Assembly: GCA_024372625.1 (NCBI GenBank)
Contig: CP099605.1
Location: 2,356,001 to 2,420,000, forward strand
DNA: 64,000 nucleotides
Reading direction: 5' to 3'
Source: Comamonadaceae bacterium OTU4NAUVB1
GTDB lineage: Bacteria > Pseudomonadota > Gammaproteobacteria > Burkholderiales > Burkholderiaceae_C
Of the stretch, positions 18,699 to 37,431 are shown one piece after another (the first letter of the stretch is position 1; each line of letters starts with the position of its first letter). A model generated the notes under the pieces. That model was not told the DNA's origin. It worked only from the letters and a program-made list of their open reading frames with translations, and ran no database searches. A program made the translations under genes and the position numbers.

Positions 18699-18715
18699 AG
18701 CAATTTCGAGGCCAA
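18699..18715 (-). promoter_or_regulatory. Candidate sigma-54 (-24/-12) promoter before the locus 1 ATP-grasp gene
   Basis: Read on the minus strand, TTGGC-CTCGAAA-TTGCT has the invariant GG and GC of a sigma-54 promoter exactly 10 bases apart, with TTGGC and TTGCT both matching consensus; the ACG after TTGGC is not conserved. It ends about 18 bases before ATG 18680, in the 73-base gap after the acyl-CoA synthetase gene. No enhancer-binding protein gene is nearby, and one chance match per 64 kb would not be surprising. Confidence 0.35.
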
Positions 18716-20838: not shown

Positions 20839-20958
20839 GGGGCTGGGCCTCGCAGGATGGGGAAAGAAAACGGAAGAAGGAAAAGGAGGGCGACGGGACG
20901 GACGGCGGAGGAGACGCGGACGACGCACCCGGTCGGCGGAGGTGCCGGCCCGGCCCGC

Positions 20959-21747: not shown

Positions 21748-22805
21748 CCGTCGACCCGGATGTCGGCGGTGCGCACCACCTTCGTCCACTTGGCGATCTC
21801 GGCGTGCAGCATCTTCGCGAAGGCCTCGGGCGTGGTGGGCATGGCCTCGGCGCCGGCATCCTGCAGGCGCTGGCGCACCTGCGGGTCGTCCAGCGCCTTG
21901 CCGATGTCCGCGCCCAGGCGTTGCGCCAGCGCCGCCGGCGTGCCCGCCGGCGCCAGGAAGGCGGCCCACGAGTACGCCTCGTAGCCCGACACGCCCGGCA
22001 GGCCCGACTCGGCGACCGTCGGCACGTCGGGCAGCAGCGCCGAGCGCCGCGCGCTGGCCACCGCGATGGCCCGCACCTTGCCGGCCCGGATCTGCGGCAG
22101 CGCGGTCGGCGCGTCGCTGAACATGAACTGCACCTGGCCGCCGAGCAGGTCGCTCATCGCCGGGGCGCTGCCCTTGTAGGGCACGTGCAGCAGCCTGGTG
22201 CCGGCCTGCATGTTGAACAGCTCGCCGGCCAGGTGCGTGCCGCCGCCGTTGCCGGCGGAGCCGAAGCTCAGCGTGCCCGGAGCGCGCCGGTCGAGCGCGA
22301 CGACGTCGGCCACCGACTTCACCGGCACGCCCGGGTGCGCCACCAGCACCACCGGGAACATCGCGCCGAAGCTCAGCGGCACGAAGTCCTTCTCGATGTC
22401 GTAGGCCAGCCGGGGCTTGAGGCTGGGCAGCACCGCGTGGTGGATGCTGCAGACGAACACGTGGTGGCCGTCGGCCGGCAGCCGGGCCGCGATCTCGGCG
22501 CCGACGATGCCGCCGGCACCCGCGCGGTTGTCGACCACCGCCGGCACGCCCCAGACCTCCGACAGCTTCTGCGCCACCGCCCGGCCGGTGGTATCGACCG
22601 GGCCGCCGGCGGGAAACGGCACGACGAAGCGCACCGCCCGGCCCGGGAACGCGGCCTGCGCGAAGGCCCCACCCGGCGCGGCCAGCGCGCCGAGCGCGGC
22701 GGCCGCGCCCGCCAGCAGGGTCCGGCGCCCGAGGGTGGGGATGGGAATGGGGATGGGGATGGGGATGGAAGCGGGCGCGTGGTCCCGGTGGGTCCTGGTC
22801 GTCAT
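21744..22805 (-). CDS. Tripartite tricarboxylate (Bug/TctC) substrate-binding protein
   Basis: A 353-residue periplasmic binding protein. The N-terminus is unusual: residues 13-23 form a Pro-Ile dipeptide run coded by a hexanucleotide repeat, then a twin-arginine-like segment LGRRTLLAGAAAALGALAAPGGAFA. The mature part shows Bug-family motifs: PGRAVRFVVPFPAGGPVDTTGR, VVDNRAGAGGIVGAEIAAR, LLHVPYKGSAPAMSDLLGGQVQFMF, and VPTVAESGLPG. Bug proteins bind carboxylates, amides or aromatic acids. No TctA or TctB membrane genes are in this operon, so the transporter partner must be encoded elsewhere. Its ends overlap both neighbours by 4 bases. Confidence 0.9.
   Translation of the reverse strand: MTTRTHRDHAPASIPIPIPIPIPTLGRRTLLAGAAAALGALAAPGGAFAQAAFPGRAVRFVVPFPAGGPVDTTGRAVAQKLSEVWGVPAVVDNRAGAGGIVGAEIAARLPADGHHVFVCSIHHAVLPSLKPRLAYDIEKDFVPLSFGAMFPVVLVAHPGVPVKSVADVVALDRRAPGTLSFGSAGNGGGTHLAGELFNMQAGTRLLHVPYKGSAPAMSDLLGGQVQFMFSDAPTALPQIRAGKVRAIAVASARRSALLPDVPTVAESGLPGVSGYEAYSWAAFLAPAGTPAALAQRLGADIGKALDDPQVRQRLQDAGAEAMPTTPEAFAKMLHAEIAKWTKVVRTADIRVDG
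22735..22770. repeat. Hexanucleotide microsatellite inside a tctC signal peptide
   Basis: Six consecutive hexamers of the pattern ATGGGG (with GTGGGG, ATGGGA and ATGGAA variants). On the minus strand they encode an Ile-Pro dipeptide run in the n-region of the TctC export signal. Changes in copy number would keep the reading frame and only lengthen or shorten the signal peptide. Confidence 0.9.
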
Positions 22806-23734
22806 GTCGTCTCCTCGTCGTTGTCGGATCGTTCCAGGGTCGCTCGATCCTTCGGCGGGTCCGCGAACACGGCATGGCCGTGGTCGAGCACCACCCGGTC
22901 GCGCGTCGGCGCGCGGACGCGGAAACGCACCTCGGCGCCGTCGTGGAACAGCTCCAGGCGCAGCGTCTCGCCCGGGAACACCGGCGCCGAGAAACGCGCC
23001 GACAGGCTGCGCAGCCGCGTCGGATCGCTGCCGGCGCACTGCGCGAGCAGCGCGTGTCCCGCCATGCCCCAGGTGCACAGGCCGTGCAGGATCGGCCGCT
23101 CGAAACCCGCCGCGCGGGCCGTGGCCGGGTCGGCGTGCAGCGGATTGCGGTCGCCGCACAGGCGGTAGAGCAGCGCCTGCTGCGGCAGGGTCGGGATGTC
23201 GACCGCGGCGTGCGGCGCGCCCTCGGGCAGCGGCGCGGGCGCGGGCGGCGCGGGGTCGCCCGGCGCCTGCGCCGTCGCGAAGCCGCCGTCGCCGCGCGCG
23301 AAGGTGGTGTGCGTCACGGTGGCCAGCAGCGCATCGCCGTCCTCGGCGTCGTGCAGGGTCTTGTCGTAGGTGACGACGGCGCCGCGGCCCGGTCCCTTGT
23401 CGACCACGCGCGTGACGCGGTGCCGCGCGCGCACCGTGCCGGCCGGGGCCAGCGGGCGGTGCCACACGACGCGTTCCTCGCCGTGCACGATGCGCGCGAA
23501 GTCGATGCCGGTGGCCGCATCCCGCATCCACGAGCCTGGAAAGCCCAGCACCACCGCCAGCGTCGGCAGTGCCAGCGGCGGCGCCGCCGCGTCGCTGACG
23601 AAGCGCAGCTGCCGCGCGTCGGTCGGGTCGCCGCCCAGGCCGAGCGCGAGCGCATAGCGCATGACGTCGTCGGCGTCGTAGCGCTGCACCACCTCGTCGA
23701 AGTGCCAGGCCTTCAGGCGATGGACATCGATCAC
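22802..23734 (-). CDS. MaoC-family (hydratase 2) acyl-CoA dehydratase
   Basis: A 310-residue double hot-dog protein like the hydratase-2 part of eukaryotic MFE-2. The N-terminal half (residues 1-150) is MaoC_dehydrat_N-like (DDVMRYALALGLGGDPTD). The C-terminal half has the hydratase-2 motif LYRLCGDRNPLHADPATARAAGFERPILHGLCTWG, including the catalytic Asp and His of D-x-NPLHxD. It hydrates trans-2-enoyl-CoA to (R)-3-hydroxyacyl-CoA. ATG 23734 follows the upstream tctC stop by one base, and its stop overlaps the next tctC start (ATGA). The central linker (about 150-190) is Pro/Ala-rich. Confidence 0.88.
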   Translation of the reverse strand: MIDVHRLKAWHFDEVVQRYDADDVMRYALALGLGGDPTDARQLRFVSDAAAPPLALPTLAVVLGFPGSWMRDAATGIDFARIVHGEERVVWHRPLAPAGTVRARHRVTRVVDKGPGRGAVVTYDKTLHDAEDGDALLATVTHTTFARGDGGFATAQAPGDPAPPAPAPLPEGAPHAAVDIPTLPQQALLYRLCGDRNPLHADPATARAAGFERPILHGLCTWGMAGHALLAQCAGSDPTRLRSLSARFSAPVFPGETLRLELFHDGAEVRFRVRAPTRDRVVLDHGHAVFADPPKDRATLERSDNDEETT

Positions 23735-23735
23735 C

Positions 23736-24749
23736 TCAGTCCACCTTGGCGCCGGAGGTCTTCACCACGCCGGCCCACTTGTCGACCTCGGCGGCCATGA
23801 AGCGGCCGAAGTCCGCCGGCGTGCTCCAGGCGGCGAAGCCCTGGGCCTCGAACCGGTCCCTGACGTCCGGGGCGGCGAGCGCCGTCCGCAGCTCGGCGCT
23901 CAGGCGCGCCAGCACCTCGGCGGGCGTGCCCGCGGGCGCGAGCAGGCCGTTCCACGCGATGGCCTCGTAGCCCGGCAGGCCGGACTCCGCCACCGTCGGC
24001 ACGTCGGGCGCGACCGGCGAGCGCGCCGCGCTGGTCACCGCCAGCGCGCGCAGCTTGCCGGCCTTCACGTGCGGCAGGGCCGACAGCATGGTGTCGAACA
24101 TCAGCTGCGTCTGGCCGCCCATGGTGTCGGTGAGCGCCGGGGCGCTGCCCTTGTAGGGGATGTGGTTCATCCGCACGCCGGCCATGGCGGCGAAGAGCTC
24201 GGCCGACAGCTGCGTGGACTGTCCGTTGCCGGAGGACGCGAAGTTCAGCTCGCCCGGCCTGGCCTTGGCCAGCGCGAGGAGTTCGGCCACGTTGCGCACC
24301 GGCAGCTGCGGGTTGACGACGATCACCAGCGGCCCGCTGGTGAGCTGCGACACCGGCGCGAAGTCCTTCGACAGCGAGTAGCCCAGGTTCTTGAACAGCG
24401 ACGGGTTGATGGCGTGGGCCGTGGTGGCCACCACCAGCGTGTGGCCGTCGGCCGGGCTGCGCGCCACCAGTTCGGCACCGGGGTTGCCGCCCGCGCCCGG
24501 CCGGTTGTCGACGATGAACTGCTGGCCCGTCTGCTCCGAGAGCTTCTGCGCCACCAGCCGCGCGACGATGTCGGTCGGCCCGCCCGGCGGATAGGGCACC
24601 ACCAGCCGCACCGGCTTGCTCGGATAGGACGCGGCGGGCGACGGCGGTGACTGCGCCTGCGCGCCGGCCGACACGGCCAGGCCGAGCGCCGCGCCGGTGG
24701 CGGCGGCGAGCAGGCGGCGTCGCGCGGGGAGGAAGCGGATCGGATGCAT
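23736..24749 (-). CDS. Second Bug/TctC substrate-binding protein of the operon
   Basis: A 337-residue binding protein with signal peptide PARRRLLAAATGAALGLAVSAGAQA (Arg-rich, possibly Tat). Motifs parallel those of the other TctC here: YPSKPVRLVVPYPPGGPTDIVARLVAQ, IVDNRPGAGGNPGAELVAR, NHIPYKGSAPALTDTMGGQTQLMFDTM, and VPTVAESGLPGYEA. The two are clearly paralogous but not recent copies. Having two binding proteins and no membrane subunits suggests they feed a shared TctAB elsewhere or act in sensing. The 49-base gap to the DUF35 gene has no obvious promoter. Confidence 0.9.
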   Translation of the reverse strand: MHPIRFLPARRRLLAAATGAALGLAVSAGAQAQSPPSPAASYPSKPVRLVVPYPPGGPTDIVARLVAQKLSEQTGQQFIVDNRPGAGGNPGAELVARSPADGHTLVVATTAHAINPSLFKNLGYSLSKDFAPVSQLTSGPLVIVVNPQLPVRNVAELLALAKARPGELNFASSGNGQSTQLSAELFAAMAGVRMNHIPYKGSAPALTDTMGGQTQLMFDTMLSALPHVKAGKLRALAVTSAARSPVAPDVPTVAESGLPGYEAIAWNGLLAPAGTPAEVLARLSAELRTALAAPDVRDRFEAQGFAAWSTPADFGRFMAAEVDKWAGVVKTSGAKVD

Positions 24750-24798
24750 GTCGTTGTCTCCTGTGGTTCCTGTCGATGACCGGTGGCCCGGCGCGCGC

Positions 24799-25215
24799 TC
24801 AGCCGGCGGCGGGATCGGCGCGCGCGAAGCGCACCAGGGTGCGGCCGTCGTGCACGAAGAAGCCGGCCGTCACGCGCTCGCCGATGCACACGCCGGGCTC
24901 GGCGTGCGCCATCAGGCGCGGACCCTCGTCGAGCTGCGCGAGGACCAGCGTGTAGGGCGCCAGCACGCGGAAGGCGTCCGACGGCGCGCGCGCGACGACG
25001 GTGACGGCGTGCAGCGTGGCCGTGCCGCGCGCGGTCTCCCAGGCCAGCGCCTCGCTGCCGCAGCGCGTGCAGGCATGGCGCGCCAGCGTCTGCGCCGCGC
25101 CGCACGCGCCGCAGCGCTGGAAGCGCAGCACGTGGCGCGCGAGCCCCTCGACGAAGGGCGCGGCGAGCGCGCCGGAGGACGTGGTGGCCGGGGCGCCGGG
25201 CGCCGGGGCGTTCAC
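24799..25215 (-). CDS. Zn-ribbon/OB-fold (DUF35) acyl-CoA-associated protein
   Basis: A 138-residue protein. A rubredoxin-like zinc ribbon lies at about residues 34-55 (CGACGAAQTLARHACTRCG, Cys-x2-Cys-x10-Cys-x2-Cys), followed by an OB-fold (TLHAVTVVARAPSDAF; YTLVLAQLDEGPRLMAH). Such proteins pair with thiolase-like partners, for example BbsA with BbsB in toluene degradation or acetoacetyl-CoA-forming complexes. It is encoded right after a thiolase-like gene: the GTG start (25215) overlaps that gene's TGA. GTG is chosen for that coupling; the first ATG in frame is far inside the OB domain. Confidence 0.88.
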   Translation of the reverse strand: MNAPAPGAPATTSSGALAAPFVEGLARHVLRFQRCGACGAAQTLARHACTRCGSEALAWETARGTATLHAVTVVARAPSDAFRVLAPYTLVLAQLDEGPRLMAHAEPGVCIGERVTAGFFVHDGRTLVRFARADPAAG

Positions 25216-26420
25216 GACGCGTCCTCCCGCGAAAGGATCAGGCTCACGTGGGAGGACATCACGCCGCCGTCGGCGTGCACGAAGGCGTGGCGCGGCCGGG
25301 CCACCTGGCGCGCCCCGGCGCGCCCGGTCAGTTGCCGGAACGCCTCCACCGCGTGCGCCATGCCGCCGGCCACGCCGCAATGGCCGAACGACAGCAGGCC
25401 GCCGTGGGTGTTGAGCGGCAACGCGCCACCGGGCGAGAAATCGCCCGCCCGCGCCCGGGCCGCCGCGCCGCCGCGCGGGGCGAAACCGATCTCCTCGAGC
25501 AGCATGGTCAGCGTGATGGTGAAGGAATCGTAGATGCCCAGGTGGTCGATGTCGGCCACGTCCAGGCCGGCCTCGGCGAAGGCGCGCCGCGCCGCGACGG
25601 CCGCGCCGCAGTCCATGACGTCGGCCATCGCGCTCAGGTGCTGGTGGCGGTGCGCCTGCCCGGCGCCGGCGAGCGCCACGCGCGTGCCGGCGCCGGCGCC
25701 GCCGTCGACGGGCGCGGCCGACACCATCAGCGCCATCGCCCCGTCGGAGATCGGGCAGCAGTCCATGAGCCTGAGCGGGGCGGCGATCGGCTTGGAGGCC
25801 AGCACGTCGGCCACCGTGATCGGCGCGCTCAGGTGGGCGCCCGGGTGGCGCCGCGCGTTCTCGCGCATCAGCACCGCGAACTCGGCCAGGTCGGCCTCGG
25901 CGAGGCCGGTCTCGTGCAGGTAGCGCGAGGCCATCAGACCGTAGTAGGCCGGCACCGAGGCGCCGTTGGGCACCTCGTAGTCCGGGTCGCCGACCTGCGC
26001 CAGCGTCTGGATGGCGCTGTCGCGCGACTGGCCGCTCAGCCGGTTCTCGCCGGCCACCACCAGCACGTGGCGGCAGCGCCCGCCGCGCACCAGCTCGCGC
26101 GCCAGCATCAGCATGGCCGCACCGGTCGCGCCGCCGACCTGCACGCCGTGCGCGTAGGCCGGGTCGAGGGCGAAGCGCTCGCAGAACAGGGTCGAGAGCA
26201 TCAGGTGCGGCAGGGTCGTGGCATAGCCGCACAGCACGCCGTCGATGTCGGCGCGGCGCAGGCCGGCGTCGTCCAGCGCCGCGCGCGCGGCCCGTGCCAT
26301 GAGGTCGAGCGCGCCCTGCCCCTCGTGACGGCCGAAGGCGGTGCCGCCGACGCCGGTGATCCAGGCCCGGCCGGGCGCGACGGCGGACGCGGACGCGGAT
26401 GCGGATGCGGTGGCGGCCAT
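25212..26420 (-). CDS. Thiolase-like protein lacking the nucleophilic cysteine
   Basis: A 402-residue protein of the SCP2-type thiolase family. N-terminal domain: GRAWITGVGGTAFGRHEG and DIDGVLCGYAT. Where active enzymes have N-x-x-C-A-T-G, this one has HGVQVGGATGAAMLMLAREL, with Gly in place of the acylated Cys. The C-terminal block NTHGGLLSFGHCGVAGGMAH keeps the GH(C/P) histidine. It is followed by its presumed DUF35 partner (4-base overlap), as in BbsAB-type heterocomplexes. It could act as a non-classical C-C cleaving subunit or a scaffold. The start ATG 26420 shares its A with the iclR TGA. Residues 4-11 are an Ala-Ser repeat. Confidence 0.85.
   Translation of the reverse strand: MAATASASASASAVAPGRAWITGVGGTAFGRHEGQGALDLMARAARAALDDAGLRRADIDGVLCGYATTLPHLMLSTLFCERFALDPAYAHGVQVGGATGAAMLMLARELVRGGRCRHVLVVAGENRLSGQSRDSAIQTLAQVGDPDYEVPNGASVPAYYGLMASRYLHETGLAEADLAEFAVLMRENARRHPGAHLSAPITVADVLASKPIAAPLRLMDCCPISDGAMALMVSAAPVDGGAGAGTRVALAGAGQAHRHQHLSAMADVMDCGAAVAARRAFAEAGLDVADIDHLGIYDSFTITLTMLLEEIGFAPRGGAAARARAGDFSPGGALPLNTHGGLLSFGHCGVAGGMAHAVEAFRQLTGRAGARQVARPRHAFVHADGGVMSSHVSLILSREDAS
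26383..26412. repeat. Hexanucleotide microsatellite at the thiolase N-terminus
   Basis: Five tandem hexamers GCGGAC, GCGGAC, GCGGAT, GCGGAT and GCGGTG. On the minus strand they encode an Ala-Ser dipeptide repeat within the first 15 residues of the thiolase-like protein, ahead of the folded domain. Confidence 0.88.
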
Positions 26421-27289
26421 CAGTGCAGCCTCCCGTGCCGCACGGCGGCGGGTGTGGCGGTGCCGCCCGCGCCGGGCGCACCGCCGCCGGACGCGGCGCG
26501 GCTCCACAGCACCTCGCAGGTGGCGGCCTCGCGCCGCAAGGCCTGCGCCAGTTCGGCCTCGCGCGAGGTGATGCGGTCGTTGAGCGCGGCGATGCTCAGC
26601 GCCGCCACCGGCCGGCCGTCGGCGCCGAGGATCGGCACCGCGATGCCGCCCATGCGCTCGACCACCACGTCCAGCAGCACCGCGTGACCACGCGCGCGTG
26701 CCGCGAGGGCGTGGTCCTCCAGCAGCCGCGCCGTGATGCGCGGGTAGCGCTGCAACTGCGGCGCGATCACGGCCAGCGCGGCCTGACGCTCGGCCTCGGG
26801 CATCCAGGCCAGCAGCGCCAGGCTGCCCGCGCCCACGCCCAGCGGGCGGCGGCTGCCGATGGACAGGTAGTTGGCGCGGATCGGATAGCGGCCCTCCTCG
26901 ACATCGACGCACAGCGACTCGATGCCGCTCGGGATCGACAGGATCACGCTGTCCTCGAACCGGCCGGTCAGCCGCAGCAGCGACGGCCGTGCCAGCGGCC
27001 GCGGGTCGAAGCGCGCCAGGGCGGCGGCGCCCAGCACCAGCAGCTCGGCCCCCAGGCGGTAGTGCTTCGTGCGCGCGTCGCGCACCACGAAGCCGTCCCG
27101 CGCCAGCACGTCGAGCAGGCGCAGCGCGGTGGTCTTGTCCAGGCCGGTGGCCACGGCGATGTCGGTCAGCCGCGTGACCCCGGGATCGGACAGCGCGCGC
27201 AGGATGCGGCAGGCGCGCTCGACCGACGAGGTGGGCTCCACGGCCCGCTGGGCCAGCATGGAGGCGGGAACGCGCGTTCTGGCGGTCAT
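26420..27289 (-). CDS. IclR-family transcriptional regulator
   Basis: A 289-residue regulator. A winged HTH spans residues about 20-80 (SSVERACRILRALSDPGVTRLTDIAVATGLDKTTALRLLDVLARDGFV), then comes an IclR effector domain of about 180 residues (YLSIGSRRPLGVGAGSLALLAWMP; GIAVPILGADGRPVAALSIAAL). The tail is Gly/Ala-rich. It is the first gene of the minus-strand acyl-CoA operon and overlaps the thiolase start by one base, so it likely controls its own operon in response to the substrate or a CoA intermediate. A dyad at 27394-27416 upstream is a possible binding site. ATG 27289 is chosen over longer frames, which run into Arg-rich sequence. Confidence 0.88.
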   Translation of the reverse strand: MTARTRVPASMLAQRAVEPTSSVERACRILRALSDPGVTRLTDIAVATGLDKTTALRLLDVLARDGFVVRDARTKHYRLGAELLVLGAAALARFDPRPLARPSLLRLTGRFEDSVILSIPSGIESLCVDVEEGRYPIRANYLSIGSRRPLGVGAGSLALLAWMPEAERQAALAVIAPQLQRYPRITARLLEDHALAARARGHAVLLDVVVERMGGIAVPILGADGRPVAALSIAALNDRITSREAELAQALRREAATCEVLWSRAASGGGAPGAGGTATPAAVRHGRLH

Positions 27290-27393
27290 GTCGTCTCTCG
27301 TCGTTGTTTCGTGCACCGGAACCGGCGCCAGGACGGCGCCGCAACCTGCCGCATTGAAGTCGCGGCGCAACGCCAGCGTCAAGCAAAGCGGCG

Positions 27394-27416
27394 AAAGTTG
27401 CCGTGGCCGAAACTTT
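27394..27416. promoter_or_regulatory. Dyad upstream of iclR, possible operator
   Basis: AAAGTT and AACTTT (6-base arms, 11-base spacer) sit in the 169-base gap between comEC and iclR, about 105 bases before the iclR start. This AT-rich patch stands out from its GC-rich surroundings. IclR-type regulators bind short inverted repeats of this kind, but the match is short and no consensus for this subgroup is known to me. Nothing else was seen in the gap. Confidence 0.3.
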
Positions 27417-27458
27417 TCCAGGGAAAACCCGGCACGCGGACCGCCCGCCGCGTCCGGT

Positions 27459-30008
27459 TCAGGGCACGCGGTGGTGCCAGTAGCGCGCCGCCACCACGCG
27501 CTCGCACCGCGCCTCGCCCGGAGCGCGGCTCGACCAGTGCGCCGCGCCGCAGTGCGGGCTGTCCACCAGCGCGATGCCGCGCGCGGCATAGGCCTCGACC
27601 ACGGCCGGCGCCGGATGCCCGAAGCGGTTGCGGTAGCCCGCCTGCACCAGGGCCAGCCGGGGCGCCACGGCATCGAGCAGCGGCGGGCTCGACGAGGTCT
27701 TGCTGCCGTGATGCGGCACGAGCAGCACGTCGGCGCGCAGGCCGCCCGCGACGGTTCGCCCGACCAGGGCAGCCTCCTGCGCGCGCTCGATGTCCCCGGT
27801 CAGCAGCGCGGTGGCGCGTCCGTTGCCCACGCGCAGCACGCACGAGCGCGCGTTGGACCGCACGCCCGGCGCGTCGTGGTCGTCGGCCAGCGGATGCAGC
27901 ACCTCGAAATCCACCCCGTCCCACGACCAGCGCTGGCCGGCCGCGCAGCGCCGCGCCGGGCGCAGCGCCTGCAGCGGGTGCGCCGGCTCGATCGATGCGA
28001 GCAGTCCGGCCTGCGGCTGCGCGGTCAGCACCGCCGCCGCGCCGCCGGTGTGGTCGCTGTCGCGGTGGCTCAGCACCACCAGGTCCAGCCGCTCGCCCAG
28101 GGCGCGCAGCAGCGGCACCAGCACCCGCGCGCCGGCGTCGCTCTCGGGGTTGTAGCGCGGGCCGGCGTCGTAGAGCAGGCCGTGGGTGGCGGTGCGCACC
28201 AGCACCGCGCCGCCCTGCCCGACATCGGCCGCCAGCAACTCGAATTCCCCGGCCGCGGGCCGCGCCGGCTGCCACAGCAGCACCGGCAGCAGCAGCGGCA
28301 GGCCCAGCGAGCGCAGGCGCCACGGCAGCCGCATCGACGCGACCACCCCGCCGACGACGCCGCAGGCGGCCAGCCACGCCGGCGGGGCCGCCGCCGAGAA
28401 CGTGGCGAAGGGCAGCGCCGCGAGGCCCTGCAGCACCCAGGCCAGCGCCTGGACGGCGCGCGCGGCCAGGTCCCACAGCGGCGGCGCCATCACGCCGGCC
28501 ATCGCCAGCGGCGTGACCACCAGCGTCACCCACGGAATGGCCAGCGCGTTGGCCACCAGGCCGACCACCGACACCTGCTGGAACAGCAGCAGGGTCAGCG
28601 GCGCGAGCGCCAGCGTGACCACGGCCTGCTCGCGCGCCAGCCGCGCGAGGCGCCGCCGCCAGCCCGGGGCACGGCCGTCGGCCGGGGCCGGGTCGGTGGC
28701 GAACAGCGCGGCCACCGCGACGAAGCTGAGCCAGAAGCCCGCCTGCAGCAGCGCCCACGGATCGACCGCCACGGCCACCCACGCGGCCAGCAGCCAGACG
28801 CAGGGCCACGGCCAGCGGCGCCCCGACAGCCGCAGCAGCGCGACCGTCGCCAGCATCCAGACCGTGCGCTGCGAGGGCACGCCCCAGCCGCTGAACAGCG
28901 CATAGGCCGTGGCCAGCGCCACGCCGCCGGCCAGGGCCGCGCGCTGGGCCGGCCAGCGGTGCATGAGGCGGGTGCTGCGGCGCCAGGCCGCGCCGACGGC
29001 CAACGACGCCAGCGCCGCGAACATCGTGATGTGCAGGCCGGAGATCGACACCAGGTGCGCCACGCCGGTCGCGCGGAACACCTCCCAGTCGGCGCGCTCG
29101 ATGGCGCCCTGGTCGCCCGTGACCAGCGCGGCGACGACGCCGGCCGCGCGGCGGTCGGCGACGCGCCCGAGGACGGCGTCGCGCACCGCCTCGCGGGCGC
29201 GCGCCACGGGCTGGCGCCAGGTCGCCGCCAGCCGGCGCGGGGCGGCGTCGCGCGTGCCGGCGCGAACGTAGCCGCTCGCGCGCGTGCCCTGCGTCCACAT
29301 CCACAACTCGGTGTCGAAGCCGTGCGGGTTCACGTCGCCGTGCGGTGCCTTCAGCCGCACCGTGAAGCGCCAGCGCTCGCCGGGGTGCGGCGCCTCCGGT
29401 GCCGGCCCCGCCCCGGGCGGTGCCCCGTGCATGGCGGTGTCGGCATGCCAGACCAGCGCGATGCGCGCCGGCACCGGGTCGACCGCGGCACCCGGGGCGT
29501 CGTCACCGGCATCGCCGACCCCGGGCGGCGCCCGGCGTGCCGACTCGACCGCGAGCGCGAAGCGCGTGCCGCCCTCCCCGTGCTGCGGCAGCCCCACGAC
29601 CACGCCCACGACCCGCAGGTCCCGCCCCTCCAGGGCCGGGTCGAGCGCCTGGGCGGCATAGCGCGCCGCGCGCCAGCCGGTCGCTCCCGCGCCGAGCAGG
29701 GCGGCGAGCAGCAGTCCCAGGGCCAGCCGCGCGATGCCGGCGACGCGCCGCCGGCGCCCCGGCCACGCCAGCACGCCCCCGCCGATCAGGCCCGCCAGCC
29801 CGGCGATCCCGTAGACGGCGGCGGGCCACAGCGCGGGCTGATGCAGTTGCAGCGCGGTGCCGCCGAGCCAGCCCGCCATCGCCACGAACAGACCCGCCCC
29901 GGGCGCCGATCTCGGGTCGTCGCCCGCTTCCTCGCCCCCGCGCGCGGGCCCCGACGGGCCCGCGCGCAAGGCGCGGCCCGGCGTCGCGCCGACCACCTGG
30001 TTTTCCAT
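27459..30008 (-). CDS. comEC: ComEC/Rec2 DNA uptake channel protein
   Basis: An 849-residue protein with the full ComEC layout. N-terminal membrane helices lead into a DUF4131/OB region (about residues 40-230). The competence core follows (about 250-560, with HLVSISGLHITMFAALASLAVGAAW, the ComEC signature), then a metallo-beta-lactamase-like domain (about 600-849) with VVLSHRDSDHTGGAAAVL and LLVPHHGSKTSSSPPLL. It carries single-stranded DNA across the inner membrane. The ComEA-like protein at 1830-2162 is the likely partner type. It is divergent from the transglutaminase gene at 30109, with a 100-base gap. The first 40 residues are Gly/Ala/Pro-rich and poorly conserved, so the true start may be internal. 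Confidence 0.92.
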   Translation of the reverse strand: MENQVVGATPGRALRAGPSGPARGGEEAGDDPRSAPGAGLFVAMAGWLGGTALQLHQPALWPAAVYGIAGLAGLIGGGVLAWPGRRRRVAGIARLALGLLLAALLGAGATGWRAARYAAQALDPALEGRDLRVVGVVVGLPQHGEGGTRFALAVESARRAPPGVGDAGDDAPGAAVDPVPARIALVWHADTAMHGAPPGAGPAPEAPHPGERWRFTVRLKAPHGDVNPHGFDTELWMWTQGTRASGYVRAGTRDAAPRRLAATWRQPVARAREAVRDAVLGRVADRRAAGVVAALVTGDQGAIERADWEVFRATGVAHLVSISGLHITMFAALASLAVGAAWRRSTRLMHRWPAQRAALAGGVALATAYALFSGWGVPSQRTVWMLATVALLRLSGRRWPWPCVWLLAAWVAVAVDPWALLQAGFWLSFVAVAALFATDPAPADGRAPGWRRRLARLAREQAVVTLALAPLTLLLFQQVSVVGLVANALAIPWVTLVVTPLAMAGVMAPPLWDLAARAVQALAWVLQGLAALPFATFSAAAPPAWLAACGVVGGVVASMRLPWRLRSLGLPLLLPVLLWQPARPAAGEFELLAADVGQGGAVLVRTATHGLLYDAGPRYNPESDAGARVLVPLLRALGERLDLVVLSHRDSDHTGGAAAVLTAQPQAGLLASIEPAHPLQALRPARRCAAGQRWSWDGVDFEVLHPLADDHDAPGVRSNARSCVLRVGNGRATALLTGDIERAQEAALVGRTVAGGLRADVLLVPHHGSKTSSSPPLLDAVAPRLALVQAGYRNRFGHPAPAVVEAYAARGIALVDSPHCGAAHWSSRAPGEARCERVVAARYWHHRVP

Positions 30009-30108
30009 GTCGATCCCCTCCCTGCGTGCGCTCGTCGTGGCGCACTAATTGCTTATTCGTGGGCTAGTATGCGTCCCACCCGAGACCCTTGAAGCACAAC
30101 CACATCCC

Positions 30109-33100
30109 ATGTCCATCCACGCCGCGCTTCATCACGTCACCCACTACAAGTACGACCGCCCGGTGCAACTGGGTCCTCAGGTCGTGCGCCTGCGTCCGGC
30201 ACCGCACTGCCGCAGCAACGTCATCTCCTACTCGCTGCGCATCGAGCCCGAGCAGCATTTCGTCAACTGGCAGCAGGACCCGTTCGCGAACTACCAGGCC
30301 CGTCTGGTGTTCCCCGAGAAGACGCGCGAATTCAAGGTCACCGTCGACCTGGTGGTCGAAATGGCGGTCTACAACCCGTTCGACTTCTTCCTGGAACCGG
30401 AAGCCGAGAACTTCCCCTTCAAGTACAGCGCCTCGCAGGCCGAGGAACTCGCGCCCTACCTGGTGACGGACGCTATGACGCCGCTGGTCGAGGCCTACCT
30501 GCAGAAGGTCGACCGCAAGGAGCAGCGCACCATCGACTTCCTGGTGGGCATCAACCAGCAGGTGCAGGGCGATGTCGCCTACCTCATCCGCATGGAGCCC
30601 GGCGTGCAGACGCCCGAGGAGACGCTCGCCAAGGGCAGCGGCTCGTGCCGCGATTCCGGCTGGCTGCTGGTGCAGCTGCTGCGCCACCTCGGGCTGGCCG
30701 CGCGCTTCGTCTCGGGCTACCTGATCCAGCTCACGCCCGACGTCAAGGCGCTCGACGGCCCGAGCGGCACCACGGTCGACTTCACCGACCTGCACGCCTG
30801 GTGCGAGGTCTACCTCCCCGGCGCCGGCTGGATCGGCCTGGACGCTACCTCCGGCCTGCTCGCCGGCGAGGGCCACATCCCGCTGGCCTGCACCCCCACG
30901 CCGTCGAGCGCCGCCCCGATCGAGGGCGTGGTGGACGACGCCGAGGTCGAGTTCGGCCACGAGATGGTCGTCACGCGCATCCACGAGTCCCCGCGCGTCA
31001 CCAAGCCCTACACCGACGAGCAGTGGGCCGACATCCTGGCGCTGGGCGACGCGGTCGATGCCCGCCTGGTGGCCGGCGACGTGCGCCTGACGATGGGCGG
31101 CGAGCCGACCTACGTCTGCACCACCAACCGCGACGCGCCCGAATGGAACACCGACGCGCTCGGCCCCACCAAGCGCGGCTACGCCACCGAACTCGTGCAG
31201 AAGCTGCGCGCCGAATACGGCGACGGCGGCTTCCTGCACTTCGGGCAGGGCAAGTGGTATCCGGGCGAGCAGCTGCCGCGCTGGGCGCTGTCGATCTTCT
31301 GGCGCGCCGACGGCCAGCCGCTGTGGCGCGACCCCGAGCGCTTCACCGACGAGCGCACGCCCACGCACTACACCAGCGAGGACGCGCGCCGCTTCACCAC
31401 CGTGCTGGCGCACCGCCTGGGCCTGACCGAGCGCTACATCCAGCCCGGCTACGAGGACACCTTCTACTACCTCTGGCGCGAGCGCCGCCTGCCGGTCAAC
31501 GTCGACCCGTTCGACTCCAAGCTCGACGACGAGCTCGAACGCGTGCGCCTGCGCCGCGTCTTCACGCAGAAGCTCGACGCCGTCGTGGGCTACATGCTCC
31601 CGATCGAGCCCGGCAACGCGACGCCCGACGCGCCCGCGCTGGCCGGCCCCGGCTGGCGTACCGGCCCCTGGTTCCTGCGCGACGACCGGCTCTACCTCAT
31701 CCCCGGCGATTCGCCGATGGGCTATCGCCTGCCGCTGGACTCGCAGCCCTGGGTCAGCAAGGGCGACTACCCCTACCAGATCGACCGCGACCCGACCGCG
31801 CCGCGCGACGAACTGCCCAGCGCCGCCGATTTCCGCGCCCGCTATCCGAGCGCGCCGGCCCCGGCCGAGGGCGACCTCGGCGCGGTGCCCTATGCCTTCG
31901 GCGCGCCACCCGCCACCCCGGTGACGGTGCGCATGCAGGAGGCCCGCGCCGTGGCGCACGGCGAAGGCCCGATCGGCGCCGTCGCGGCCGCCGGCGCACC
32001 CGGCACGCCGGGTTCGGAGACCGATCCGGCCACCCCGCGCATGCCGCGCCGGGGCGAGTCGGCGCACTGGGCCACCCGCACGGCGCTGTGCGTCGAGGTG
32101 CGCGACCCGCGCCGCGCCAACGGCCCGGCGGCCGAGAAGGTCGGCAGCGCCTCGGGCGTGCTCTACGTCTTCATGCCGCCGCTGTCGCGCCTGGAGGACT
32201 ACCTCGACCTCGTCGCCGCCATCGAGGCGACGTCCGAGCAGCTCGGCCTGCGCATCGTGATGGAGGGCTACCCGCCGCCGCGCGATCCGCGCCTGAAGAT
32301 GCTGCAGGTCACGCCCGACCCCGGCGTCATCGAGGTCAACATCCACCCCGCGCACAACTGGCGCGAGCTGGTCGAGCACACCGAATTCCTCTACGACGCG
32401 GCCTTCGAGACGCGCCTGTCGGCGGAGAAGTTCATGACCGACGGCCGCCACACCGGCACCGGCGGGGGCAACCACTTCGTCCTCGGCGGCGCCACGCCGG
32501 CCGACAGCCCGTTCCTGCGCCGGCCCGAACTGCTCGCGAGCCTGCTGCTCTACTGGCACAACCATCCGTCGCTGAGCTACCTGTTCTCGGGCATGTTCAT
32601 CGGCCCGACGAGCCAGGCCCCGCGCGTGGACGAGGCCCGCAACGACCAGGTCTACGAACTGGAGATCGCGCTCAAGGAGATCGCCCGCGAGCGCGAGGTC
32701 TACGGCAAGGACATGCCCGCCTGGCTGGTCGACCGCACGCTGCGCAACATCCTGGTGGATGTCACCGGCAACACGCACCGCAGCGAGTTCTGCATCGACA
32801 AGCTCTACTCGCCCGATTCCGCCACCGGCCGCCTGGGCCTGCTGGAGCTGCGCGCCTTCGAGATGCCGCCCCACGCGCGCATGAGCATCGCCCAGCAACT
32901 GCTGCTGCGCGCCTTCATCGCCCGCTTCTGGGACACGCCCTACCAGGCGCCGGCCACCCGCTGGGGCACCGAGCTGCACGACCGCTTCCTGCTGCCGACC
33001 TTCGTCAAGATGGACTTCGAAGACGTCATCGCCGAGATGCGACAGGCCGGCTTCGCGTTCGACCCCGAATGGTTCGCGCCGCACCTCGAATTCCGCTTCC

Positions 33101-33645
33101 CGCTGGTCGGGCAGGTGCGCTCGATGGGCGTGGAGCTGTCGCTGCGCAACGCGCTCGAACCCTGGCACGTGATGGGCGAGGAAGGCTCCTCGGGCGGCAC
33201 GGTGCGCTATGTGGACTCGTCGCTCGAACGCATCGAGGTGCGCGTGACCGGCCTCAACGAGAGCCGCCACGTCGTCACCGTCAACGGCAAGGTGCTGCCG
33301 CTGCAGCCCACCGGCACCACCGGCGAGTACGTCGCCGGCGTGCGCTACAAGGCCTGGAACCCGCCCTCCTCGCTGCATCCGAGCATCGGCGCGCACGCGC
33401 CGCTGACCTTCGATCTGGTCGACACGTGGATGAAGCGCTCGCTCGGCGGCTGCCAGTACTTCGTGGCCCACCCCGGCGGACGCAACTACGAGACCTTCCC
33501 CGTCAACGCCTACGAGGCCGAGAGCCGACGCATGTCGCGCTTCACCCGCATGGGCCACACGCCCGGCACGATGCGCACGCCGCCGGCAACGATCGAGCTG
33601 GCGGGCAGCCGCGAGTTTCCGTTCACGCTGGACCTGCGGCGCTGA
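30109..33645 (+). CDS. Transglutaminase-like protein with DUF2126 (locus 2)
   Basis: A 1178-residue protein. Residues 1-90 are a bacterial transglutaminase N-terminal beta domain (HHVTHYKYDRPVQLGPQVVRLRP). The transglutaminase core follows with triad Cys180 (GSGSCRDSGWLL), His229 (DLHAWCEVYL) and Asp245 (GLDATSGLL). From about residue 300 the long DUF2126 region begins (GDVRLTMGGEPTYVCTTNRDAPEWN; FGQGKWYPGEQLPRWALSIFWR; GTGGGNHFVLGGATPADSPFL; FRFPLVGQVRSMGVELSLR), which resembles glutamine-synthetase/ATP-dependent ligase folds. Start ATG 30109 (MSIHAALHHVTHYKY) matches the family start; a longer frame to 30049 is unlikely. It is followed 71 bases later by the ATP-grasp/alpha-E fusion. The function is predicted (peptide or protein modification), not known. 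Confidence 0.9.
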   Translation: MSIHAALHHVTHYKYDRPVQLGPQVVRLRPAPHCRSNVISYSLRIEPEQHFVNWQQDPFANYQARLVFPEKTREFKVTVDLVVEMAVYNPFDFFLEPEAENFPFKYSASQAEELAPYLVTDAMTPLVEAYLQKVDRKEQRTIDFLVGINQQVQGDVAYLIRMEPGVQTPEETLAKGSGSCRDSGWLLVQLLRHLGLAARFVSGYLIQLTPDVKALDGPSGTTVDFTDLHAWCEVYLPGAGWIGLDATSGLLAGEGHIPLACTPTPSSAAPIEGVVDDAEVEFGHEMVVTRIHESPRVTKPYTDEQWADILALGDAVDARLVAGDVRLTMGGEPTYVCTTNRDAPEWNTDALGPTKRGYATELVQKLRAEYGDGGFLHFGQGKWYPGEQLPRWALSIFWRADGQPLWRDPERFTDERTPTHYTSEDARRFTTVLAHRLGLTERYIQPGYEDTFYYLWRERRLPVNVDPFDSKLDDELERVRLRRVFTQKLDAVVGYMLPIEPGNATPDAPALAGPGWRTGPWFLRDDRLYLIPGDSPMGYRLPLDSQPWVSKGDYPYQIDRDPTAPRDELPSAADFRARYPSAPAPAEGDLGAVPYAFGAPPATPVTVRMQEARAVAHGEGPIGAVAAAGAPGTPGSETDPATPRMPRRGESAHWATRTALCVEVRDPRRANGPAAEKVGSASGVLYVFMPPLSRLEDYLDLVAAIEATSEQLGLRIVMEGYPPPRDPRLKMLQVTPDPGVIEVNIHPAHNWRELVEHTEFLYDAAFETRLSAEKFMTDGRHTGTGGGNHFVLGGATPADSPFLRRPELLASLLLYWHNHPSLSYLFSGMFIGPTSQAPRVDEARNDQVYELEIALKEIAREREVYGKDMPAWLVDRTLRNILVDVTGNTHRSEFCIDKLYSPDSATGRLGLLELRAFEMPPHARMSIAQQLLLRAFIARFWDTPYQAPATRWGTELHDRFLLPTFVKMDFEDVIAEMRQAGFAFDPEWFAPHLEFRFPLVGQVRSMGVELSLRNALEPWHVMGEEGSSGGTVRYVDSSLERIEVRVTGLNESRHVVTVNGKVLPLQPTGTTGEYVAGVRYKAWNPPSSLHPSIGAHAPLTFDLVDTWMKRSLGGCQYFVAHPGGRNYETFPVNAYEAESRRMSRFTRMGHTPGTMRTPPATIELAGSREFPFTLDLRR

Positions 33646-33650
33646 GGGTC

Positions 33651-33689
33651 GGGGCCCCGGCGGCGATCCAGGATCGCCGCCGGGGCCCC
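33651..33689. repeat. 39-base perfect palindrome between transglutaminase and fusion gene
   Basis: Arms of 19 bases (33651-33669 and 33671-33689) pair perfectly around a single central A. The arms read GGGGCCCCGGCGGCGATCC and its complement. It begins 5 bases after the transglutaminase stop and ends 27 bases before the TTG of the next gene. No T-run follows, so it is not a classic terminator. It may act as an mRNA-stabilising hairpin, an attenuator or a cruciform site. Confidence 0.9.
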
Positions 33690-33716
33690 TCCCGCAACGT
33701 TGACAATGTCGGTACC

Positions 33717-36443
33717 TTGGAACCGCACAACGAATCCCTCTTCGACGCGCACGCACCGGAATCGCCGGCCGCGCTGGCGGCCGCGCTCGCGCCGCCACCG
33801 CCGCCCGGTCATTTCGACGAACTGCGCGGCCGCGTCGCGACCGCCACGGGCGCCGCGACGCCCGACGAAGGGCCCCGCGGGGCACCGGCGGCACCGCTGC
33901 TCTACGACGTCGCGCAGCCCGCGCCCGCCGCCGCCGCGCCGGCCACGCCGCCGGCAGGCCGGTCGGGCATCGCCGACGCGCTCGCACCGCCCTGGTGCCG
34001 TTTCTTCGAGAACCTGGGCGACGGCGGCTTCACCGACCTGCCGCGCCGCGCCGTCGGACTGGAGCGCCAGATCCGCGACAACGGCGTCACCTACAACGTC
34101 TACGCCGATGCCGACGGCCCGCAGCGCCCCTGGTCGCTCGACCTCTTCCCGCTGATCATCTCGCCCGAGAGCTGGACGCAGATCGAGGCCGGCGTGCAGC
34201 AGCGCGTGCGCGTGCTCGACCGCGTGATGGCCGACGTCTACGGAGCGCAGGTGCTGCTCGCCGAAGGCCTGCTGCCGCCTGCGCTGGTGCGCGGCCACCC
34301 GGGCTACCTGCGGCCGATGCACGGCGTGAAGCCGCCGGGCGACACCTGGCTGCACATCGCCGCCTTCGACCTCGCGCGCGGGCCCGACGGCAACTGGTGG
34401 GTGGTCTCGCAGCGCACGCAGGCGCCCTCCGGCCTGGGCTACCTGCTGGAGAACCGCGTCGCCGTCTCGCGCCAGTTCCCGCAGGCCTTCGCCGAGCTGC
34501 AGGTGCAGCGCCTGGCCGCCACTTACAGCGCGCTCATGGAAGGCCTGCAGGGCCTGTGCCCGGCCGGCGCGCCGCCGCACATCGCGCTGCTCACGCCCGG
34601 CCCCTACAACGAGACCTACTTCGAGCACGCCTACCTCGCGCGCTACCTGGGCGTGACGCTGGTCGAGGGCAGCGACCTGACCGTGCGCGACCAGCGGCTC
34701 TACCTCAAGACCCTGCAGGGCCTGCGCCCGGTGCACGGCCTCATCAAGCGGCTGGACGACGAGTTCCTCGACCCGCTGGAGCTGCGCCCCGATTCCACGC
34801 TGGGCGTGCCCGGGCTGCTGCAGGCGATCCGCGCGGGCAACCTGCTGGTGGCCAACATGCCGGGTTCGGCGTTCCTCGAATCGCCGGCCCTGCTGGGCTT
34901 CCTGCCGGCGCTGGCGCGGCGCCTCATCGGCGAGAAGCTGCGCCTGCCGGCCCTGCCGACCTGGTGGTGCGGCGAACGCGCGGCGCTGGAAGCGGCGCTG
35001 CCGCAGCTCGATCAGGCGGCGATCAAGCCGACCTATGCCGGCAGCCGTCCGGGCCATGGCTTCCAGGCCGTGCTGGGCAGCCGCATGGGCCGGCGCGAAC
35101 TCGACGAATGGGCCGGACGCATCGTCCGCCAGGGCGACGAGCACACCGTGCAGACCTACCTGCCGCTCTCGCAGATGCCGACCTGGGCACCGGACGCCGC
35201 GCTCGGGCGCATCGCGCCGCGCGCCATGCTGCTGCGCGTGTTCGCCGTCAGCGACGGCGCGCAGTCCTGGCGCGTGCTGCCCGGCGGGTTGGCCCGGCTG
35301 GCCGGCGCCGACGCTCAGATCGCCTCCATGCAGCGCGGCGGCAGCAGCGCCGACGTCTGGGTGCAGACGCACGGCACGGTCGACCGCAGCACGCGGCTGC
35401 AGCCGCACGCCACGCCGGCCTCGCTCGCGCGCCACCGCGCGCCGGTCACCAGCCGCGCGGCCGAGAACATGTTCTGGCTCGGGCGCTACACCGAGCGCGC
35501 GGAGAACGCCGTGCGCCTCGCGCGGCTGGCGCTCGACCTGCTCGGCGGCGAGGACCAGTCGTCCGCGCCGATCCTCGAATGGCTGCACAGGCTCGCCCTG
35601 CGCAACGGCCTGGTGCCGCGCGAGGTGCCGTCGGTGACGCGCTCGCGCCGCGTGTTCGAGCGCGCGGTCATCGCCGACCTGGGCAAGACCGACACCGGCA
35701 GCGTCGGCTACACGCTGCGCTGCGTGCGCCAGGCCGCGGCGGCCGTGCGCGAACGGCTGTCCCAGGAGCACTGGAACCAGATCGTGCGCGCCGAGACGGA
35801 CTTCCTGCGCCGCTGCGCCGAACTCGGCGGCGAGCCCCGCACGCGCGAGAACAGCTTCGCCAGCGGCGCCGCGCTGCGCACGCTGGAATCCGCCAGCACC
35901 GCGCTGTCGGCCATGACCGGGGCGCAGACCGACCGCATGACGCGCGACGACGCCTGGCGGCTGCTGTCCATCGGCCGCCACATCGAGCGCCTGGCGTTCC
36001 TCGCCAACGCGCTGGCGGCCGGCTTCGAGGACGCGGCGGTGCACGAGGTCACCGGCTTCGAGGCCGTCGTCGCGCTGTTCGACAGCACCATCACCTTCCA
36101 TGCCCGCTACCAGCAGCGCCGCGACGTGGCCACGCTGGTCGACCTGCTGGTGCTCGACGGCGACAACCCGCGATCGCTCGCCTGGGTCACCCAGACCCTG
36201 CGCGGACGCATCGCCCGGCTCGCGGGCAGCGCGCCGGGCAAGCTCACCGCGCTGTCCTACGAACTGCCCGACCCGGCCAGCTGGACGCTAGAAGCCCTGT
36301 GCGACCCCGGGCCCGACGGCAAGTACGGCGCGCTCGTCGCGCTGTTCCGCACCTGCGAGACGGCCGCCTACCACGTCTCCGACGCCCTGGGCACGCGCTA
36401 CTTCACGCTGACTTCCGAGTCGGTGCGCTCGGTGGGGATGTAG
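33717..36443 (+). CDS. Fused circularly permuted ATP-grasp + alpha-E protein (locus 2)
   Basis: A 908-residue fusion. Residues 1-90 are Ala/Pro-rich. The CP-ATP-grasp part runs from about 90 to 560: SQRTQAPSGLGYLLENRVAVS, LTPGPYNETYFEHAYLARYLG, KRLDDEFLDP, PDSTLG, KPTYAGSRPGHGFQAVLG. The alpha-E part runs from about 578 to 905 (SRAAENMFWLGRYTERAEN; LLSIGRHIERLAFLANAL). The same two modules occur as separate genes at 17148-18680 and 16169-17125. TTG 33717 (LEPHNESLFDAH) is the best start: no ATG or GTG lies in frame before the conserved region, although the ribosome site is weak. The stop is 4 bases before the second transglutaminase. Predicted amidoligase; unproven. Confidence 0.88.
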   Translation: MEPHNESLFDAHAPESPAALAAALAPPPPPGHFDELRGRVATATGAATPDEGPRGAPAAPLLYDVAQPAPAAAAPATPPAGRSGIADALAPPWCRFFENLGDGGFTDLPRRAVGLERQIRDNGVTYNVYADADGPQRPWSLDLFPLIISPESWTQIEAGVQQRVRVLDRVMADVYGAQVLLAEGLLPPALVRGHPGYLRPMHGVKPPGDTWLHIAAFDLARGPDGNWWVVSQRTQAPSGLGYLLENRVAVSRQFPQAFAELQVQRLAATYSALMEGLQGLCPAGAPPHIALLTPGPYNETYFEHAYLARYLGVTLVEGSDLTVRDQRLYLKTLQGLRPVHGLIKRLDDEFLDPLELRPDSTLGVPGLLQAIRAGNLLVANMPGSAFLESPALLGFLPALARRLIGEKLRLPALPTWWCGERAALEAALPQLDQAAIKPTYAGSRPGHGFQAVLGSRMGRRELDEWAGRIVRQGDEHTVQTYLPLSQMPTWAPDAALGRIAPRAMLLRVFAVSDGAQSWRVLPGGLARLAGADAQIASMQRGGSSADVWVQTHGTVDRSTRLQPHATPASLARHRAPVTSRAAENMFWLGRYTERAENAVRLARLALDLLGGEDQSSAPILEWLHRLALRNGLVPREVPSVTRSRRVFERAVIADLGKTDTGSVGYTLRCVRQAAAAVRERLSQEHWNQIVRAETDFLRRCAELGGEPRTRENSFASGAALRTLESASTALSAMTGAQTDRMTRDDAWRLLSIGRHIERLAFLANALAAGFEDAAVHEVTGFEAVVALFDSTITFHARYQQRRDVATLVDLLVLDGDNPRSLAWVTQTLRGRIARLAGSAPGKLTALSYELPDPASWTLEALCDPGPDGKYGALVALFRTCETAAYHVSDALGTRYFTLTSESVRSVGM

Positions 36444-36447
36444 GACC

Positions 36448-37431
36448 ATGCTGCTCCACGTCACCCACGAGACGCGCTACGACTACACGCCGCCGGTCGA
36501 GACGGCGCAGCACCTGGCGCACCTGAAGCCGTGCGCCACGCCCTGGCAGCGCCTGCTCAGCCACACCCTCACCATCACCCCGACGCCCGCGCAGTGCCGC
36601 GAGGTGCCCGACCTGTACGGCAACACGCGCGCCTTCTTCGCGCTCGAATCGACGCACGACGAGCTGGTGGTGACGGCCGAGAGCCTGGTCGAGACCACCG
36701 AGCCGATGCTCTCGGCGCGCATCGCCCGGGAGCTCCCGTGGGAGCGGGTGCGCGAGCGTTTCCGCTATGGCAAGCACGCGCGTTTCGACCCCGCCTCGGA
36801 ATTCGTCTTCGCCTCGCCCTACGTGCCGCGGCACGAGGATTTCGCGGTCTACGCGCGCGCGAGCTTCAACGCCGAGCGGCCTACCTTCGATGCCGCCATG
36901 GAGCTCACGCGGCGCATCTACCGGGAGTTCAAGTACGACGCCAGCAGCACCGAGATCAACACGCCCGCCATCGAGGCCCTCGCGCAGCGCAAGGGTGTGT
37001 GCCAGGACTTCGCGCACATCATGATCGGCTGCTTGCGCACGCTGGGCCTGCCGGCGCGCTACGTCAGCGGCTACCTGCTGACGCAGCCGCCGCCGGGCAA
37101 GGCGCGCCTGATCGGCGCCGACGCCTCGCATGCCTGGGTGTCGGTCTACCTGCCCGGCGAGGACCACCTGAGCGGGGACTGGGTCGACTTCGATCCGACC
37201 AACGGCCGCCAGCCCGGCGAGGACTACGTGACGCTGGCCGTCGGCCGCGACTACTCCGACGTCTCCCCGATGCGCGGCGTGCTGCATGGCGGAGCGCGCC
37301 ACACGCTGGACGTCGGCGTGACGGTGCGGCCGCTGGAAGAACTGCAATCGCGATCGCAATCGCAGTCGCAGTCGCAATCGCGGAATGCCGGGCCGGGTCC
37401 CGCGACGCCCGGCGACCCCGGGCGCCGCTGA
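36448..37431 (+). CDS. Transglutaminase family protein (locus 2, second)
   Basis: A 327-residue protein. An N-terminal beta domain (residues 1-85, LLHVTHETRYDYTPPVETAQHLAHLKP) is followed by a transglutaminase core with intact triad Cys185 (RKGVCQDFAHIM), His228 (ASHAWVSVYLPG) and Asp249 (VDFDPTNGRQ). The block GLPARYVSGYLLTQPP is typical. This is the standard third gene of ATP-grasp/alpha-E/transglutaminase operons. It starts 4 bases after the fusion gene, so it is probably co-translated. The C-terminal 25 residues hold a Ser-Gln dipeptide repeat coded by a microsatellite and are likely disordered. No signal peptide is evident, so it should act in the cytoplasm. Confidence 0.9.
   Translation: MLLHVTHETRYDYTPPVETAQHLAHLKPCATPWQRLLSHTLTITPTPAQCREVPDLYGNTRAFFALESTHDELVVTAESLVETTEPMLSARIARELPWERVRERFRYGKHARFDPASEFVFASPYVPRHEDFAVYARASFNAERPTFDAAMELTRRIYREFKYDASSTEINTPAIEALAQRKGVCQDFAHIMIGCLRTLGLPARYVSGYLLTQPPPGKARLIGADASHAWVSVYLPGEDHLSGDWVDFDPTNGRQPGEDYVTLAVGRDYSDVSPMRGVLHGGARHTLDVGVTVRPLEELQSRSQSQSQSQSRNAGPGPATPGDPGRR
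37345..37380. repeat. Hexanucleotide microsatellite at the transglutaminase C-terminus
   Basis: Six tandem hexamers of pattern CARTCG (CAATCG, CGATCG, CAATCG, CAGTCG, CAGTCG, CAATCG) encode a Gln-Ser dipeptide run close to the C-terminus. The unit is a multiple of three, so slippage would change tail length without a frameshift. Confidence 0.92.

Follow-up and report, generated by a model that had tools for sequence, protein, structure and literature searches.

An apparent pseudo-ATP-grasp in a predicted two-unit amide-bond locus, possibly nitrogen-controlled, of a Comamonadaceae bacterium

In the genome of Comamonadaceae bacterium OTU4NAUVB1, three adjacent genes encode a transglutaminase joined to a DUF2126 domain (gene 1, here TGD), a fusion of a circularly permuted ATP-grasp with an Alpha-E domain (gene 2, FUS) and a second transglutaminase-like protein (gene 3, TG). 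We have analyzed them within a stretch of 64,000 nucleotides of contig CP099605.1 (positions 2,356,001 to 2,420,000; assembly GCA_024372625.1), hereafter the window, with positions counted from its first letter. The explanation that we favor, at a probability of about 0.45, is that nitrogen limitation induces a single amide-bond system made up of two transcription units, one of which is formed by the three genes, and in which FUS would be a non-catalytic partner. The anatomy, the conservation and the promoter footprints are directly supported, and we infer the chemistry and the substrates.

All three genes lie on the forward strand. TGD (30109-33645, 1178 residues, ATG start) carries its transglutaminase part at residues 7-246 and DUF2126 at residues 276-1177, FUS (33717-36443, 908 residues, TTG start) is a predicted pseudo-ligase, and TG (36448-37431) comprises 327 residues, with gaps of 71 bases between TGD and FUS and 4 bases between FUS and TG. 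These coordinates and gaps agree with an earlier sequence-only reading of the locus, and its description of gene 2 as an ATP-grasp and Alpha-E fusion was borne out by Pfam, where CP_ATPgrasp_1/2 and Alpha-E in FUS, as well as Bact_transglu_N and Transglut_core in both TGD and TG, scored far above the cut-off. TG also matched the structures 3isr (E 6e-15) and 6g49 (E 1.5e-5). Both catalytic triads are intact, as had been claimed: C180/H229/D245 is invariant in the 46 aligned gene-1 sequences (window included), and among 160 gene-3 rows C185 is found in 155, H228 in 154 and D249 in 154. Family match and Cys-His-Asp triad together mark TGD and TG as transglutaminase-like thiol enzymes. What the sequence-only reading left out was the DUF2126 domain of gene 1 and a standalone ATP-grasp and Alpha-E pair elsewhere in the window, both described below. 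Neither NCBIfam nor the anti-phage models gave any match for the five proteins of the two units.

Gene 2 had been proposed to form the amide bond. By fold and sequence family FUS is a circularly permuted ATP-grasp, but its E-x-N pair is broken, as it is in every fused sequence that was checked. Glutathionylspermidine synthetase (GspS) and the eukaryotic glutathione synthetases use an E-x-N pair as metal ligands; we take the magnesium-binding role of the pair in the present family from these enzymes, from which FUS differs in lacking it. The codons for S231-Q232-R233 (34407-34415, forward strand) align with E172-D173-N174 of the standalone ATP-grasps, the putative Mg ligands, so that the window FUS reads S231/R233 where the standalone structure 3n6x reads E-D-N. 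When the standalone ATP-grasps were compared by sequence profile with E. coli GspS and its relatives, no significant alignment resulted, so the metal-ligand mapping is based on fold, motif and strand order.

In a first alignment of 39 standalone and 33 fused ATP-grasp sequences, E172-D173-N174-L-R176 was invariant in the standalone proteins, whereas the fused proteins mostly read S-Q-R-T-Q. The set was widened to 262 candidates, of which 256 passed a coverage filter (100 standalone, 156 fused) and 6 were dropped. E172, N174, R176 and three loop glycines were present in all 100 standalone sequences, while E172 and N174 occurred in none of the 156 fusions and R176 in 6 of them, rows that are not independent, since 107 of them belong to the genus or to named close relatives. 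Protein searches gave the same picture, with both E172 and N174 absent from 119 matches to the window FUS (120 before one was lost to the filter) and from 120 matches to the fusion of Granulicella; these two sets overlap in part with the 156 rows. Ten further regions yielded 9 intact standalone proteins and 3 fusions, one of which (L297) keeps E172 and not N174. The loop glycines have been lost less uniformly: none is kept in 103 of the 156 fusions, one in 48, two in 4 and all three in 1. The loop of the window FUS still has glycines, and two alignments place this loop differently. Loss of both metal and ATP ligands had been named in advance as evidence against a ligase; the metal pair is indeed gone, but the lysine K379/K437, which presumably binds ATP, is still present (K437 in the window FUS).

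In a tree of 98 rows one branch, with a Shimodaira-Hasegawa-like approximate likelihood ratio test (SH-aLRT) value of 100, separates 58/58 fused from 40/40 standalone sequences; the tree was built by a quick method and carried a warning on four long fused branches. Since the split falls on one branch, the loss of the E-x-N pair would be old and, most simply, a single event. The pattern of residues suggests that FUS is a conserved pseudo-ATP-grasp whose catalytic residues have been lost. No inactive ATP-grasp of this kind was found in print in the open-access literature that was searched, in which most subscription journals are missing, and a conserved dead ATP-grasp paralogue may be new.

The Alpha-E part of the fusion has kept both of its ER pairs, with E17 in 154 and R18, E169 and R170 each in 156 of the 156 fusions. 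We had considered a loss of the second ER motif in the fused Alpha-E, which is ruled out by the full conservation of E169 and R170. The fused form often lacks residues that never vary in standalone Alpha-E proteins, e.g. N81, D172, R176 and D179 of that domain. The genome holds two Alpha-E matches only, FUS and the standalone AE, both within the window, and the domain turned up in 156 of the 299 genomes that sample the phylum.

The second unit lies 11 kb from the three genes, on the reverse strand (18680-16169). It consists of AG, a standalone circularly permuted ATP-grasp by Pfam (17148-18680, 510 residues, starting at 18680 or, as in relatives, at 18668), and AE, a standalone Alpha-E protein (16169-17125, 318 residues, Pfam 337.7 bits). 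AG matches 3n6x with an E value of 9.6e-209 and has the E-D-N motif, the glycine loop and the lysine all intact, residues that are shared by 100/100 standalone rows. In the three-gene unit, the predicted active ligase is the DUF2126 domain of gene 1 (30934-33639, forward strand), a putative glutamine-synthetase-like amidoligase domain. It matches PF09899, annotated as 'putative amidoligase', with 1323.7 bits over residues 276-1177 and profile positions 1-826 of 826. Fourteen of its residues are invariant in 46/46 sequences (E332, K382, E387, E742, N744, H789, R804, E842, R844, E893, K898, E913, R915 and E918), and the predicted structure of gene 1 appears to resemble glutamine synthetases. Unlike glutamine synthetase and GmaS, the DUF2126 domain of the window is fused to a transglutaminase. 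DUF2126 and the standalone AG are likelier ATP-using ligases than FUS. The term 'DUF2126' was not mentioned in the open-access literature described above.

The named best matches came from Variovorax, Xenophilus and Pseudacidovorax, and the organism is close to Variovorax. For the genus, 36 other genomes were searched and 27 regions were fetched, picked for closely spaced halves. Both halves are present in 26 of the 27 (L079 has one half; L077 is without FUS at a contig end), always on opposite strands and over a length of 8.6-17.9 kb. A ComEC-like gene stands between gene 1 and AG in 25 of these 26. In the window this gene, named from its translation alone, occupies 27459-30008 on the reverse strand, and about 8.8 kb of other genes (18754-27430) separate it from AG-AE. 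Some genus genomes outside the fetched set have the halves further apart, e.g. G014 with about 48 kb. Further afield, both units form a single same-strand run in L065, L068, Burkholderia arboris and Burkholderia cenocepacia, and in Caballeronia such a run is broken by an oppositely oriented metallopeptidase gene. In the acidobacterium Granulicella tundricola, a plasmid also carries TGD, FUS and TG in this order.

In the phylum sample, DUF2126 was found in 84 and FUS in at least 85 of the 299 genomes; among the matches listed, 75 genomes have both, 10 have FUS only, 9 have DUF2126 only and 205 have neither. Where coordinates were compared (46 of the 75 co-occurring genomes), FUS and DUF2126 lie less than 500 bp apart in 44. 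Because they co-occur and lie this close, their association is beyond chance.

These distributions also bear on an alternative that we consider unlikely, namely that the two units are separate systems of shared ancestry, AG-AE doing one job and TGD-FUS-TG another. It could explain why 10 of the 85 FUS genomes have no DUF2126 among the matches listed, why Sinorhizobium meliloti pSymB and Sphingomonas carry FUS-TG with neither TGD nor AG nearby, and why DUF2126 is missing from some genomes that have AG-AE (L295, L296). It accords less well with the short span of the 26 genus regions (which were chosen for closeness), with the single run in several other Burkholderiales and with the similar promoter sites 5' of both units. 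One B. cenocepacia genome has two differing standalone ATP-grasp sets (L301, L300), one that in the fetched stretch consists of AG-AE-transglutaminase only and one that is a full run.

In the single system that we favor, nitrogen limitation would act through sigma-54, probably with NtrC, to turn both units on. AG and DUF2126 would each join an ATP-activated carboxylate and an amine to give an amide, and the transglutaminases would act on the amide or isopeptide so formed by way of a thioester, either hydrolyzing or transferring it. FUS, with its fold and some active-site residues retained and its chemistry lost, would be a binding, scaffold or regulatory partner of the active ligases, holding a substrate or a partner. 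The likely outcome would be that nitrogen held as amides or amines is recovered or re-routed, or that proteins are tagged. The reverse direction, in which the system degrades amides, the transglutaminases being ammonia-releasing cysteine peptidases and the ligases protecting or recycling the acyl part, strikes us as rather improbable: it would suit the intact thiol-enzyme triads and the control by nitrogen limitation described for relatives in the available parts of PMC5491218 and PMC8050072, but plain hydrolysis would have no need of two ligase folds that spend ATP.

That nitrogen control extends to the present organism is suggested by candidate promoters. A sigma-54-type -24/-12 sequence of the form GG-N10-GC stands 5' of gene 1 (TGGCGCACTAATTGC, 30038-30052, forward strand) and another 5' of AG (TGGCCTCGAAATTGC, 18700-18714, reverse strand). 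Their GG and GC columns are 100% identical in the upstream regions of the genus, 28/28 for TGD and 27/27 for AG, and the mean identity of the 15-mer is 0.94 and 0.96, respectively, as compared to 0.49 and 0.57 further upstream. For loci outside both the genus and the named set, sites with p<0.05 were found in 12/26 upstream regions of AG and 6/43 of TGD. AG sites are perfect (11/11) in L070 and L074. In B. arboris and B. cenocepacia a 10/11 site precedes the first aligned AG residue by 81 bp; upstream of the second copy in B. cenocepacia (L300), no site reaches 10/11. A second conserved block, GGCTAGTATGCGTC, is seen at a near-fixed distance 3' of the gene-1 -24/-12 site, both in the window (30063-30076) and in L075-L101.

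Published data on relatives concern probable counterparts of these genes. According to the available text of PMC5491218, I35_5080 to I35_5083 of B. cenocepacia H111 are among the common targets of sigma-54 and NtrC, with values of -8.2, -9.4, -9.4 and -6.0 in an ntrC mutant; by order and description these four genes would be AG, AE, a transglutaminase and TGD. The accessible parts of two further papers report that expression of the Pseudomonas putida homologues is raised on nitrate (PMC8050072) and that counts in marine metagenomes tie DUF403/404/407 to urea domains (PMC3597751).

Several observations qualify the promoter evidence, and some of them weigh against nitrogen control here. The stretch from site to start codon is likewise conserved (0.73 for TGD, 0.86 for AG), and of 145 compared segments 6 (TGD) and 10 (AG) match the site itself in conservation. 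With same-family loci left out, p<0.05 was reached in 9/22 AG and 3/38 TGD regions, which leaves the gene-1 sites outside the family near chance. Over the whole window, 31 sites of the -24/-12 type were counted against 34.6 expected from shuffles, and in a test of the window's own upstream sequence against shuffles the AG site was not significant (p 0.165; TGD site, p 0.03). A scan for NtrC palindromes, with single-base shuffles as the reference, showed no clear excess upstream of the units, with p<0.05 in 8/100 and 6/131 upstream regions and p values of 0.975 and 0.505 in the window. One may suppose that the sigma-54-like sites reflect chance or another element, and that the organism has no nitrogen control of these genes. 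We think this improbable, given that GG and GC are fixed in all 27 AG and 28 TGD loci against far more variable sequence further upstream, and given the perfect AG sites of L070 and L074. As judged from the loci beyond the genus, there is a fair case for a sigma-54-type site at AG and a weak one at TGD; both units would be switched on by sigma-54, probably with NtrC.

The remaining possibility, that FUS is still the ligase, with gene 2 making the amide and ATP-Mg bound via the conserved segment that replaces E-D-N-L-R, is the least probable: the replacing residues are conserved (R at N174 and Q at R176, each in 32/33 sequences), Arg441 and Arg459 are kept almost everywhere, and K379 is retained in 27/27 rows of the genus and in 120/156 fusions overall, but it is found in only 9/40 of the more distant fusions, neither the E nor the N of the E-x-N pair is left in any of the 156 fusions, and we know of no active ATP-grasp without that pair.

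The locus can be compared with systems already described. The title of a 2009 paper by Iyer, Abhiman, Burroughs and Aravind reportedly names glutamine-synthetase-like amidoligases, and DUF2126 sets are said to be covered there. The window locus shares the families and the kind of operon with the systems predicted in that work, and would differ from them in its fused ATP-grasp without the E-x-N pair. The association of ATP-grasp, alphaE and transglutaminase is credited to Iyer et al. 2009 in the available parts of PMC6376114 and PMC5666114, which agrees with the sequence-only reading in that comparative genomics had grouped these families as amide-forming or peptide-modifying, and runs counter to its presentation of the system as undescribed. 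In its available text, PMC6376114 gives no confirmed role for such operons and reports that the standalone ATP-grasp of the Yersinia Anbu operon releases phosphate from ATP, which fits an intact standalone ATP-grasp family.

The Anbu operons of Yersinia bercovieri and P. putida resemble the window genes in their standalone ATP-grasp, Alpha-E and transglutaminase, and also in nitrogen-linked expression, a Pseudomonas feature according to the available part of PMC8050072; DUF2126 and the fusion are extra in the window. Anbu was not identified in the genome with PF00227, for which the clear match is HslV and a weak, unidentified one lies at C3:1407796, and neither is near the window units. I35_5080-83 of B. 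cenocepacia H111 comprise an ATP-grasp, Alpha-E, a transglutaminase and a large transglutaminase (PMC5491218, available part), and in another B. cenocepacia genome FUS and TG come immediately after a similar set. From order and description the two sets would be the same. B. cenocepacia has one gene run, whereas the window has two units, 11 kb apart and on opposite strands. The locus belongs to known, uncharacterized sets of enzymes that presumably make and break amide bonds.

Some further features of the region deserve mention. A perfect hairpin with 19-base arms around one base (33651-33689, forward strand; RNA folding z -5.0) lies in the gap between TGD and FUS. No T run follows the palindrome, and inspection by eye of the first 75 bases 3' of gene 1 did not show it in 27 genus relatives. 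The start codon of FUS is GTG or TTG across the genus, and in 23 of the 26 loci compared at this place, the window (33700-33719) included and the others from L075-L101, TGACAAT is found about 9 bases before it. No ribosome site was obvious by eye before the FUS start in the genus loci compared, and a promoter of its own with a leaderless start is possible for FUS. The genes at 18754-27430 appear, by translation, to include an acyl-CoA ligase, a Bug-type binding protein, a thiolase and an IclR regulator, the last of which alone was checked; the fetched genus regions, chosen for closeness of their halves, have no counterpart of this insert. A Peptidase_Mx zinc metallopeptidase adjoins AG/AE in Caballeronia (L257:3154-4215) and lies about 1 kb or less from AG in G051 (C1:1875699-1876472). 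As a part of the system it was rejected: it is present in 38/61 genomes searched, but the genus copies lie on a different contig or no closer than 0.2 Mb.

More broadly, and more tentatively than the reading of this one locus, TGD-FUS-TG may be a widespread nitrogen-controlled amide ligase or transpeptidase machine built around a dead ATP-grasp, a ligase-pseudoligase couple with AG/AE acting in trans, in at least two phyla. For experimenters the analysis points to a probable dead protein, two likely ligase domains and a probable switch in nitrogen limitation, and it warns against assaying the ATP-grasp of FUS alone, given that this domain is probably inactive.

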